Positions 7,062 through 11,181 of a stretch of DNA of 34,445 nucleotides are shown piece after piece. Within the stretch, counting starts at the first letter, position 1. Every line of letters begins with the position of its first letter. A program made the translations under genes and the position numbers. The notes beneath the pieces are model-generated. The model ran no database searches. It worked only from the letters and a program-made list of their open reading frames with translations, and had not been told where the DNA came from. Source of the DNA: Nitrosomonas sp. (GTDB lineage Bacteria > Pseudomonadota > Gammaproteobacteria > Burkholderiales > Nitrosomonadaceae); the NCBI GenBank assembly GCA_023257295.1, contig JALRCN010000161.1, positions 1 to 34,445 on the forward strand, in the 5' to 3' direction.

Positions 7062-7559
7062 TCAAACATGACTATCATCATCGGGTTGTACCAGAAAAAT
7101 AAGGACGATGGCAATGATGATCACCAGCCGGAATGCCGCTTGCTGTGCATTGGCTACGTCGGATTGCCACATCAAGAACCATTCTCCGCCGATTGTCATG
7201 AATCCGGTGAACCATAACAAAAAGCCCAGCATCAATCCTAAAATCGGTATGCGTTTAGCCTGATTGAATGCAAGCGGATCGTCGATATTTTTGTAAAGGC
7301 GTAACCCGCCTATCCAGCAACAAGCCGCTATGGCGATTTCCGCGCAGATAATCATGCCGTAAACGGCATGATGAATGAACGGCGATTCGATGGCACGCCA
7401 CATCGATCGATTATCGGCGAAGGTCGTGTCCATCGTCAGGACATGCGTGACGAGGAAGAAGTTGGCGTTGTAATCGGTGATATTGCCGAGAGCAACCAGC
7501 GATGCGTATAACGCAAAAGACAGCACCATCGAAACTTTGCATAGCCTGGTATACATCAT
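7062..7559 (-). CDS. DUF2165 family membrane protein
   Basis: The ORF track starts this frame at 7826, but the first ~89 residues overlap the Tim44-like gene and look like a shadow translation. The family-like start is MMYTRLCKVSMVLSFALYASLVALGNITDYNANF at 7559, giving 165 residues. Four hydrophobic helices are visible: residues about 8-28, 65-90, 107-130 and 145-162. A conserved-looking FLVTHVLTMDTTF segment lies between the first two. The C-terminus ends in acidic QPDDDSHV. The function of DUF2165 is not known to me. It follows the Tim44-like gene by 79 bases on the same strand and could be cotranscribed. Confidence is good for the family and moderate for the start (weak GGGTAG Shine-Dalgarno). 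Confidence 0.72.
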   Translation of the reverse strand: MMYTRLCKVSMVLSFALYASLVALGNITDYNANFFLVTHVLTMDTTFADNRSMWRAIESPFIHHAVYGMIICAEIAIAACCWIGGLRLYKNIDDPLAFNQAKRIPILGLMLGFLLWFTGFMTIGGEWFLMWQSDVANAQQAAFRLVIIIAIVLIFLVQPDDDSHV

Positions 7560-7638
7560 TGATCTACCCGGGTCGAGCGAGTCGGCGGCATAAGCGGCCC
7601 GATTGCCGGGTAGGGGCGGTGCAAATTTGACGGGCCTA

Positions 7639-8499
7639 TTAAGATACCTGCTGGATACCGGCCAGAAGCCAGGTGGCTTGCGGATCTTTGAGGTTTTTTT
7701 GCACATGCCAGATTTCATCGAATGCGTCCGGTTCGCCATCGGGCAGATCGCGTATTTGGCCGGTGAAACGCACACTGGCAATTGCTGCATCGCCGACGGT
7801 TTCCACTTCCAGCAGATTGGCATCAATGAACATTACTTCCGATTGCTGGTGAGGGCCATCCCTTTCCTTAATTTGCGCGTCGATTTCCGCGAGCATTTCC
7901 GGCGTGGTGTAATCGCGGATTTCTTCAATATCGCCGCGATCATGTGCGGCTTGCAGGGCGATGAACGATGCTTTGGCATGCTTCAGAAACGGTTCCACTT
8001 TAAAATCCGCCGGAATGTTAGGTTGTTGCGTTGCGCTATTGCCGGTATTTGCTGCCGCAGGCGAAAATGGCGGCGGCGTGAAGCGGTCTTGCGCCGCGGT
8101 GTTCATGCCTCCCGAATATTGCATCGCGGGCGATTGCTGTTCCGTGCGCGGTTTGCGCATCATGCGGATAATGAAGAATACTCCGCCGATCAATAGCGCT
8201 ATGATCAGCATGTCCATCATATTGATGTTTTCGAATGCGCCGCCCATAAACAGCGCTGCCAATAAACCGCCTGCGGCGAGACCGGCTAATGCACCGCCCC
8301 ATTTGCTGCCCGTGCTAGGCGCTGCTGCGGGTGCGGCGGCAGGTGCTTGTTTCGGGCTTGGTGCGGTTTGTTGCTGATTAATCGATTGACGTTGCGTGCC
8401 GAGATTCTTGCCGCCGCCCATACGCTTCGCTTCCGCATCGAATGCGAACAATCCAAAACTGAGAAAAGCGATGGTCAGAAAGGTGAGTGTTTGCTTCAT
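7639..8499 (-). CDS. Tim44-like domain protein, exported or membrane anchored
   Basis: The 286-residue protein starts with a hydrophobic segment MKQTLTFLTIAFLSFGLFAFDAEA (signal peptide or anchor). A low-complexity Gln/Ala/Pro linker (about 35-65) and a Gly/Ala-rich hydrophobic stretch follow (WGGALAGLAAGGLLAALFMGG.. to IALLIGGVFFIIRMM, about 67-112). The C-terminal globular domain (about 155-285) matches the Tim44/calcium-binding mitochondrial carrier fold (FLKHAKASFIALQAAHDRGDIEEIRDYTTPEMLAEI). Bacterial members are poorly characterised; the mitochondrial relative acts in protein import, but that role cannot be transferred. The start is supported by GAGGA about 9 bases upstream and by a well-formed promoter. 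Confidence 0.85.
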   Translation of the reverse strand: MKQTLTFLTIAFLSFGLFAFDAEAKRMGGGKNLGTQRQSINQQQTAPSPKQAPAAAPAAAPSTGSKWGGALAGLAAGGLLAALFMGGAFENINMMDMLIIALLIGGVFFIIRMMRKPRTEQQSPAMQYSGGMNTAAQDRFTPPPFSPAAANTGNSATQQPNIPADFKVEPFLKHAKASFIALQAAHDRGDIEEIRDYTTPEMLAEIDAQIKERDGPHQQSEVMFIDANLLEVETVGDAAIASVRFTGQIRDLPDGEPDAFDEIWHVQKNLKDPQATWLLAGIQQVS

Positions 8500-8531
8500 G
8501 GTTGTTTCCTCAAACCGGTGTTAAAAATTCG

Positions 8532-8559
8532 AGTATAGCATCAATCCGGTCGTGGTCAA
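8532..8559 (-). promoter_or_regulatory. Candidate sigma70 promoter of the Tim44-like gene
   Basis: On the minus strand TTGACC (-35) and TATACT (-10) are separated by 16 bases, each matching consensus at five of six positions. Predicted start is near 8525, giving a leader of about 25 bases that contains GAGGA before the ATG at 8499. The promoter sits immediately downstream of the DUF3293 gene, so the two genes are separately startable. Confidence 0.65.
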
Positions 8560-8563
8560 TTTC

Positions 8564-8992
8564 TCACCGCAGCAATAGCAAGCGCGGAACGGCATCGGCA
8601 CCGATCCGTACAATCGCATTTTGATTAAATTGCCGCCCGATGAATTGTGCGGTATCCGGATCGATACCGGACACAAAAAAACTTTTTTCGGCAGGCCATT
8701 GTGCGCATGGATCGATGTTCGACCCTTCGACGATGGAATAGCCTTGATGTTGCAGGCAATGTCGTAACGATCGGTGCGCCGTCAAATTTTCCTCAATGGG
8801 CAATGGCCGACTGAAAGGGTTATAGGCACTGACGATGGCCGCATGACGCGAATTCGTATCCTGCAACAGCAAGGCAAGTGGTGCCGAAAATGTATCGATA
8901 CGCAAGTAAACCGGCTCAGGGAAGGTGTCGATCCGGTAAATCGTTTTTGCGTAACTATCGACAAGCTGTTGAGGAATTGTCGAATGTGCCAT
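8564..8992 (-). CDS. DUF3293 family protein
   Basis: This small 142-residue soluble protein has no signal peptide. The C-terminal half carries the features I associate with DUF3293: SAYNPFSRPLPIEENLTAH in the middle, then WPAEKSFFVSGID, a QFIGRQFNQNAIVRIGADAVPRLLLLR ending. Its function is unknown. It lies between the cytochrome c gene (17 bases away, same strand) and the Tim44-like gene. The close spacing to the cytochrome gene suggests cotranscription, but nothing links the functions. The start lacks a strong Shine-Dalgarno. Confidence 0.78.
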   Translation of the reverse strand: MAHSTIPQQLVDSYAKTIYRIDTFPEPVYLRIDTFSAPLALLLQDTNSRHAAIVSAYNPFSRPLPIEENLTAHRSLRHCLQHQGYSIVEGSNIDPCAQWPAEKSFFVSGIDPDTAQFIGRQFNQNAIVRIGADAVPRLLLLR

Positions 8993-9009
8993 GAATAAAA
9001 AGGGTATGC

Positions 9010-9570
9010 TTATTCGTGCCTATGACCTTGATGCGCATGGTCGTGAGAATTGTCCTGTGCAGTTTGGATAATTTGCCGATATTGCTCCGGCGTCATCGCA
9101 TTCAATTCAAGTACGAAAGCCGCTATCGCCCAAATGCTGTCGTCGTCGTGGCTGAGTCCCCATGCTGGCATCGCGGTCATTTTTAGGCCATTCTTGATCA
9201 CCCAAAAATAAGCCTTGGCGCGTTCCAGTTTTTCGGTTTGATCCTTAATCGGTGCACGCTCGAAAAACTTGGGTGCTTGCGGGTACAATCCAAGCGATAA
9301 TTCGGTTGGTTGCATGCCTGGCGCAAGATGGCAGATAGTGCACATTGCGCTGTAATGCTCGGCACCTTGTAAACGTATCCATTCGTTGTCCATTGCGGGT
9401 ACTTGCTGTTCCTTGGCGCGTGCTTCGATTGAGTTGTTTCGTACCCAGGCGATGATTTTCTCGGTGATCGCCCAGTGTTTTTCCGTAGCTGCCATGTTAT
9501 ATGCGCCCGAGCTAAGTGTGATAAAGACAAGAATTGCTGATGTCACTAGAAAGCCAATAATCTTTTTCAT
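9010..9570 (-). CDS. Membrane-anchored c-type cytochrome, single heme, His-rich C-terminus
   Basis: The 186-residue protein begins with an uncleaved or cleavable hydrophobic segment (about 4-24). It has one heme-binding motif CTICH at 77-81, with M134 in KMTAMPAWG as the likely distal axial ligand. This is the layout of class I / cbb3-subunit-like cytochrome c domains (to about residue 155). The tail HDHAHQGHRHE (about 176-186) is unusually rich in histidine and may bind metal (inference). AAGGAG precedes the ATG by a short spacer. It is divergent from the secreted RTX-like gene across a 180-base region. An electron-carrier role in the periplasm is expected; the partner is not evident. Confidence 0.85.
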   Translation of the reverse strand: MKKIIGFLVTSAILVFITLSSGAYNMAATEKHWAITEKIIAWVRNNSIEARAKEQQVPAMDNEWIRLQGAEHYSAMCTICHLAPGMQPTELSLGLYPQAPKFFERAPIKDQTEKLERAKAYFWVIKNGLKMTAMPAWGLSHDDDSIWAIAAFVLELNAMTPEQYRQIIQTAQDNSHDHAHQGHRHE

Positions 9571-9678
9571 TTTTGACTCCTTGCAATCAATAAAACAAGA
9601 TCGATACGTTTGGATTGCTTGAAATTTTTGATTGTCGTGCCTGAGGCCCAGTTTCAGCGCAATGCATCAGTGTAATGT

Positions 9679-9692
9679 TTGATCCTGATCAA
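9679..9692. promoter_or_regulatory. FNR/ANR-type operator, TTGAT-N4-ATCAA
   Basis: TTGATCCTGATCAA is a perfect match to the FNR family half-sites with the standard 4-base centre. Its centre (9685.5) lies 41.5 bases upstream of the start predicted from the TATACT -10 hexamer of the plus-strand gene, the classic position for a class II activator. On the minus side no AT-rich -10 is seen at the mirror distance, so control of the cytochrome gene is less likely. Confidence 0.7.
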
Positions 9693-9714
9693 GCATAAAA
9701 TTTAATAAGAGAAT

Positions 9715-9750
9715 TATACTAAAAAAGTGACTAATTCGAAGGAGAAGAAA
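9715..9750 (+). promoter_or_regulatory. -10 element, predicted transcript start and strong RBS of the secreted RTX-like gene
   Basis: TATACT at 9715-9720 is a good -10 with no sigma70-like -35 hexamer, as expected for an activator-dependent promoter. The predicted start is about 9727, so the GTG that opens the ORF-track entry falls at the transcript start. AAGGAG at 9739-9744, six bases before ATG 9751, fixes translation at MAVFTL. Confidence 0.6.
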
Positions 9751-11181
9751 ATGGCAGTCTTTACATTATATAATCCCACAACACATACACTTTCCAGCTT
9801 AACCTCGGCTTTGTTGTCTTCTGGGTCGGGCATCTCGGTTACTGCCGGTTCGATCAGCGTGAAGTATGGAACGGGTACCTCATATGCGGATACGGTGCTC
9901 GCTACGACTTCGATTTCTTTTTATGATGGCAGTATTCCTGGCCTGGGCATCGGTGCAGGGTTGGTTCTGACATCCGGCGATGGCAATCCACCTTCATCGA
10001 ATACACAAACAGGTTATGGGGTCTCATTGACACCGTCGGAAACGGACGCTGGTCTCAACACTACAGTTCACGCTGCTTTTCCATCGGCAGGTGAAGTTAA
10101 GGATGCGACGGTGCTCGAATTCAGTTTCACCGTGTCGGATCCCGCGCTAACCAGCATTAAATTCAATCTCATTTATGCTTCCGACGAATATCCGGAATTT
10201 AGCGACAGCAGTTTCGTCGATATCGCGGGTGTTTATGTCAATGGCGTCAATTATGCATTGTTCAATAATCGCGCCGATCAGCCATTGAGTATCTTGGATA
10301 CCAACTTAGCCGCCGGTAATTACCGGAATAATGCAGGCGGTGCTATTCCGCTGGAATACGACGGTATTTCCAATATCTTGACGGTGATTGCGCCGGTGAC
10401 TACCGGTACGAACAAGATAAAAATAGCGGTCGCGGATACCGGCGATCAGATTTACGATTCAGGTATTTTTGTCGGAGATTTTCATGCCATCGATTTTGAC
10501 GGTTCCGGTTTGGCATTGGAAACCAAAGGCTCATCATCGGATGATTTGCTGGTGAAAGGGCACGATTTTAACGAATTTTTTGATCTCGGCAGTGGTAACG
10601 ACAATGCATTCGGCGGGAAAGGCGATGATGTTTTCGATGGCGGGGATGGTTTTGACTCGGCTATTTTCAGTGGAAACTTTTCCAGCTACGACTTCAGCAA
10701 GCTGTTCACCGATAATCTTATTTCCGGGCCGGATGGAAACGACAGTCTGAACGATATTGAGTTCGGCGTGTTTGGCGACGATCTTTTCTCATTCGATACC
10801 CAAGAGGGTGGCAGTACTTACAATATTTATGCCTTATTGGAGGCGGCGTTCGATCAAGCACCATCAACGGATTTGTTGAGCCAATGGGTTAAAGAAGGAA
10901 TGGATGGCGACGATACGGCGGCGCTGGCGCAGCAAATGATCAATACTTATGCGCCCGGTGTTTCAAATGAAACATTGATTGTTCATTTATTCAAGACCGT
11001 GGTCGGCATTACGCCGACACAGGCGCAGATCGATGAATTCAGTGCGTTGATCGGGCCTGGAAAAACCTTTGCAACCCAGGGCGATTTGGTTGCTTTCGCG
11101 GCATTGCTCGATCTCAATACCGACGATTTTGCTTCTATCGTCGGTACGCCGATTGCATTGGATTTGTCGCAATTTATTTGA
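9751..11181 (+). CDS. Putative type I-secreted protein: choice-of-anchor-L domain, RTX-like repeats, DUF4214-like tail
   Basis: The protein has 476 residues from the ATG chosen by the AAGGAG site (the track starts 8 codons earlier at a GTG). Residues about 10-250 match the choice-of-anchor-L pattern: GLVLTSGDG at 70-78, DATVLEFSFTV at 118-128 and the hallmark IYASDEYPEFSDSSFVDIAGVYVNG at 141-165. Residues 280-308 (GSGNDNAFGGKGDDVFDGGDGFD) are RTX-type calcium-binding repeats. A GPDGNDSLNDIEFGVFGDDLF motif (326-346), seen after such repeats, follows. Residues 357-465 resemble DUF4214. There is no Sec signal and the end is hydrophobic (IALDLSQFI), consistent with type I secretion; no transporter genes are in the window. 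It may be a surface or adhesive protein (inference). It is a single-gene unit with an FNR-type promoter and its own terminator. Confidence 0.8.
   Translation: MAVFTLYNPTTHTLSSLTSALLSSGSGISVTAGSISVKYGTGTSYADTVLATTSISFYDGSIPGLGIGAGLVLTSGDGNPPSSNTQTGYGVSLTPSETDAGLNTTVHAAFPSAGEVKDATVLEFSFTVSDPALTSIKFNLIYASDEYPEFSDSSFVDIAGVYVNGVNYALFNNRADQPLSILDTNLAAGNYRNNAGGAIPLEYDGISNILTVIAPVTTGTNKIKIAVADTGDQIYDSGIFVGDFHAIDFDGSGLALETKGSSSDDLLVKGHDFNEFFDLGSGNDNAFGGKGDDVFDGGDGFDSAIFSGNFSSYDFSKLFTDNLISGPDGNDSLNDIEFGVFGDDLFSFDTQEGGSTYNIYALLEAAFDQAPSTDLLSQWVKEGMDGDDTAALAQQMINTYAPGVSNETLIVHLFKTVVGITPTQAQIDEFSALIGPGKTFATQGDLVAFAALLDLNTDDFASIVGTPIALDLSQFI

Follow-up and report, generated by a model that had tools for sequence, protein, structure and literature searches.

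Organisation of the locus

The window, i.e. the complete 34,445-nucleotide stretch of Nitrosomonas DNA that was analysed, harbours a 180-bp intergenic space separating a divergent c-type cytochrome gene (9010–9570, minus strand) from a gene on the plus strand (9751–11181) that encodes a 476-aa choice-of-anchor L/RTX protein. Within this space lies TTGATCCTGATCAA (9679–9692, plus strand; centre 9685.5), which matches all 10 specified positions of the FNR box, has perfect palindromic half-sites and represents the sole exact TTGAT-N4-ATCAA in the window, thereby confirming the perfect box described in the first-pass annotation. Its centre is located 65.5 bp before the ATG at 9751 and 115.5 bp before that of the cytochrome gene. 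When up to two mismatches were permitted, 28 FNR boxes were found across the window against 25.9 expected, i.e. without enrichment, and weight was therefore given to the perfect site only.

A gap of 22 nt (9693–9714) separates the box from TATACT (9715–9720, plus strand), which matches TATAAT at five of six positions. The transcription start is predicted at G9727 (plus strand) by counting from this −10 element, as opposed to mapping, and the centre of TTGATCCTGATCAA is then situated at −41.5. Hexamers positioned 15–19 nt from the −10 match the −35 consensus TTGACA at no more than two of six positions, and TATACT lacks the TG of an extended −10. A ribosome-binding site, AAGGAG (9739–9744, plus strand), precedes the ATG by 6 nt, and the homologues of the protein start at the same methionine, supporting this start codon. 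A recount thus reproduced the geometry that had been reported for the box, the −10, the missing −35 and the ribosome site.

The encoded protein and its probable export

The main recognisable domain of the 476-aa protein is choice-of-anchor L (residues 48–241; 9892–10473, plus strand), which matches NF038133 at 121 bits against a cut-off of 27; no paper naming this domain was found in a literature search. It is followed by a short putative block of RTX nonapeptide repeats of the GGxGxDxUx type (residues 270–303; 10558–10659, plus strand), for which the single-sequence match of 16 bits falls below the Pfam cut-off of 23, while the family profile matches the RTX portions of lipases, epimerases and adhesins with solved structures. 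The C-terminal helical region (residues 354–476; 10810–11178, plus strand), as predicted by an AlphaFold model of low confidence (pLDDT 56), belongs to a segment that recurs in many Nitrosomonas proteins, the matches falling within about residues 260–460. The earlier description of the product as an RTX-like secreted protein is fair but incomplete, choice-of-anchor L being the more prominent domain. While the protein resembles other choice-of-anchor L proteins in this domain, it differs from them in that the domain is joined to an RTX block and to a C-terminus of type I style.

No N-terminal signal was evident by eye, and a complete PrtDEF-type exporter is encoded elsewhere in the genome (PrtD at 768 bits, with adjoining HlyD-type and TolC-type genes), unlinked to gene 9751–11181. 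Type I export is thus likely, and the protein is probably exported by this PrtDEF-like system. The gene was rightly called lone at its own locus, the exporter genes residing at another.

The Fnr regulator and other members of its family

The genome encodes a genuine Fnr: one protein (L002) matches NF008365 of NCBIfam at 247 bits against a cut-off of 228, and its recognition helix carries ETVSR. Its cysteines at positions 46, 49, 55 and 148 form a C-x2-C-x5-C arrangement with the fourth cysteine 93 residues further on. The cysteines of E. coli Fnr, at positions 20, 23, 29 and 122, are spaced in the same manner. The fnr gene is adjoined by hemN in divergent orientation, and Fnr regulons in Nitrosomonas have been predicted independently (PMC8510549).

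Besides Fnr, the genome encodes three further Crp-type helix-turn-helix proteins, and the FNR and DNR motifs are nearly identical (PMC8510549), both of which favour the possibility that another member of the Crp/Fnr family (e.g. a DNR/NnrR-type NO sensor) uses the box, in which case the signal would be NO or nitrite and not oxygen. However, among the frames read (L004 only in part), the Fnr cysteines and ETVSR were found in L002 alone, and the recognition helices of L001 (REMVSR) and L003 (RETVTR) are more like those of other subfamilies, making recognition of the box by such a protein unlikely.

The divergent cytochrome gene

The box might alternatively serve or repress mainly the cytochrome c gene, its place before the choice-of-anchor L gene being incidental. 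In the nearest relative (L020), a one-mismatch box is situated 131.5 bp from the cytochrome ATG, similarly far as the 115.5 bp observed in the window, and a few other cytochrome orthologues carry sites matching at nine of ten positions at −81.5. Most cytochrome orthologues, however, are without the box. Furthermore, the cytochrome side bears TGAAAC, and hence no −10, at the class II distance, whereas the right-hand side has its five-of-six −10 at exactly 22 nt. A primary role in cytochrome expression therefore seems rather improbable.

Orthologues and distant homologues

A match to the N-terminal half of the protein at E 1e-30 or better was identified in only five of 85 Nitrosomonas genomes. 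In the nearest orthologue (L020, 91%), the cytochrome c/rpoH neighbours are retained, but the intergenic region spans 364 bp, the one-mismatch box within it lies 233.5 bp before the ATG and the proximal promoter is a different one; no FNR box is present at −41.5. Alignment of this intergenic region with that of the window yielded no signal above shuffles. The orthologues L021 and L022 have no FNR box upstream, and in both the gene follows a GlcG-like gene and flanks the neighbouring genes on the side opposite to that seen in the window. The first-pass annotation had regarded loss of the box from close relatives as evidence against the promoter, and such loss was thus observed in part: L020 retains only a displaced, imperfect box and the other two orthologues none. 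FNR control would therefore not be ancestral to the gene, and the three contexts indicate that the gene has changed both its position and its promoter.

When the region 7062–11181 of the window is compared to L021, the gene is found on opposite sides of a DUF2165/Tim44/DUF3293/cytochrome c block, a placement that we read as a local relocation which changed the promoter of the gene. Additionally, L020 contains another perfect palindrome, TTGTTATGTAACAA (L020:1257–1270), centred 57.5 bp before the ATG of the orthologue and followed after 18 nt by TATAAT, from which its centre is counted at −37.5. That this palindrome represents a displaced FNR site seems doubtful, its half-sites and spacing being wrong.

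A more distant homologue in genome G087 (40% over 385 aa) is a large protein in which choice-of-anchor L and RTX domains are combined with Ig-like and cadherin-like ones; its frame ends at approximately L133:10628, while an RTX C-terminus continues in another frame. Its promoter (G087:C1:23909–23950, equivalent to L133:7910–7951), located downstream of form II Rubisco-type genes, consists of TTGATATATATCAA, 22 nt and TATAAT, which places the box at −41.5, 69.5 bp before the ATG. The G087 genome contains just two such box/22-nt/−10 sites, and we estimate the probability of this coincidence among the homologues examined at ~1e-3 or less, a rough figure in view of the AT-rich surroundings. The site was recognised post hoc, albeit at the homologue itself. 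The homologues L134, L135 and L137, which differ in their N-termini, have no FNR box, nor does one occur upstream of a broken copy of the 476-aa protein with several stops (L136, G098:C187). Oxygen control, as predicted from these sites, is thus a derived feature within the gene family, although it occurs at two well-separated members.

Recurrence of the class II geometry

Based on its own composition, the 180-bp intergenic region is expected to contain 6e-4 perfect boxes, while the chance of a −10 matching at least five of six positions at one fixed offset is 0.017; the joint chance is thus ~1e-5 (6e-4 x 0.017), or, by our estimate, ~1e-4 over all intergenic regions of the window. Markov models predict 0.07–0.2 perfect boxes per window and (at order 2–3) ~11 in the whole genome, where 19 were observed, about twelve of them within genes. 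Since ~11 of the 19 are expected and most lie in coding sequence, an exact box alone constitutes weak evidence. A control using the reversed pattern (1 versus 19 boxes in the genome) was distrusted because this pattern contains TAG/CTAG, and it was replaced by the Markov expectation and the fixed-offset −10 test.

Around the 19 boxes of the genome, nine −10-like hexamers with at least five of six matches were detected over 40 offsets, and three of these nine are positioned at 22 nt, namely those of the window gene (TATACT), hemN (CATAAT) and a gene for an outer-membrane beta-barrel protein (TATCAT). With relatives added, five of 17 such hexamers occur at 22 nt. The boxes of hemN and the beta-barrel gene are both kept in the closest relative; that of the latter (L018:1183–1196) is a perfect box that is retained in G120 (L128) with one spacer base changed. 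Furthermore, a box combined with TANNNT was found 194 times at 22 nt as against 63 times at the control spacing of 26 nt over 85 Nitrosomonas genomes, counts that take in related genomes and are hence not independent, which applies equally to both spacings. From these counts it follows that the class II arrangement is real in the genus and that the window promoter fits it.

The geometry therefore forms the strong part of the evidence against chance, and although the Markov expectation and the absence of the box from this position in orthologues would accord with a fortuitous pairing of box and −10, the low joint chance, the enrichment of the 22-nt spacing in genome and genus and its recurrence at the G087 homologue render such a coincidence very improbable. 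The FNR class II reading proposed in the first-pass annotation is well supported by the Fnr of the genome, by the shared geometry at hemN and the outer-membrane gene, by the enrichment in the genus and by the distant homologue.

Among other boxes of the genus, those of L129 (G120) and L111 (G117) are followed at 22 nt by TATATT and TATAAA, respectively, before a gene for an Alginate_exp outer-membrane protein. A DksA/TraR-type zinc-finger gene also has a perfect FNR box (L005:1501–1514), 45.5 bp ahead of its first start codon, with no good −10 at the class II distance.

Discussion

A palindromic box centred at −41.5 from the predicted start, a −10 without a −35 and an fnr gene in the same genome are all present. 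Taken together, these data are best explained by a genuine FNR class II promoter that individual lineages have gained or lost, that controls a probable type I-secreted surface protein and that would be activated at low oxygen, a reading to which we assign a probability of about 0.68; the three alternatives considered above are weaker. We infer that, as oxygen falls, a [4Fe-4S] Fnr dimer would bind TTGATCCTGATCAA and, from −41.5, contact RNA polymerase at the TATACT −10, this class II activation substituting for the missing −35 and switching on a single gene, 9751–11181. The product would then leave the cell, probably via the type I (PrtDEF-like) system encoded elsewhere, fold with calcium outside it and function at the surface or as a secreted protein. 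The promoter would be lineage-specific, the gene having acquired new neighbours, and with them a new upstream region, within the genus.

This arrangement resembles FNR class II systems of the E. coli type and that of cld of Ideonella dechloratans (PMC7349173), in which a 14-bp TTGAT-N4-ATCAA at −41.5 is accompanied by a weak or absent −35 and by an Fnr carrying ETxSR and the four cysteines of the cluster; the class II site at 41.5 of this beta-proteobacterial cld has been tested (PMC7349173). Unlike those promoters, that of the window controls a probable exported protein and not a respiratory or detoxifying enzyme, and both its start and its Fnr dependence are predictions. It also recalls hly of uropathogenic E. 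coli (reviewed in PMC12846084), where low oxygen and Fnr are linked to the expression of an RTX-type protein secreted by a type I system, although the Fnr control is predicted in the present case and the window gene is without a toxin domain, an acyltransferase or a linked exporter, its RTX block being short. Precedents thus exist both for FNR class II promoters and for RTX expression linked to Fnr (PMC7349173, PMC12846084), and the mechanism is a textbook one.

Since the G087 relative is adhesin-like, the role in aggregation or biofilm formation that had been suggested for the product would be a reasonable one. More tentatively, independent events in Nitrosomonas may have brought exported choice-of-anchor L/RTX surface proteins under FNR class II control at least twice, namely at the window gene and at the G087 adhesin, such that low oxygen would switch the cell surface for attachment or aggregation, a generalisation that we consider doubtful at present.

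The designation of the organism as an ammonia oxidiser fits its genus, as AMO (PF02461) was present in four of eight members searched (G015, G003, G113 and G011), but AMO was not found in the assembly of the window itself (G000), nor in G120, G117 and G104; this absence possibly reflects a binning gap of fragmented assemblies. The main text of a paper on the transcriptome of N. europaea under oxygen limitation does not mention Fnr, RTX, secretion, biofilm, hemN or porin.

The FNR regulons of ammonia oxidisers are known chiefly through predictions, with many hypothetical proteins among the predicted targets (PMC8510549). Against this background, the window gene represents a concrete non-respiratory target: it probably encodes a surface protein, its transcription start is precisely predicted, and a second case exists in the genus. 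If true, the proposed control would link oxygen sensing to the cell surface of nitrifiers, which would be relevant to aggregates in low-oxygen reactors.
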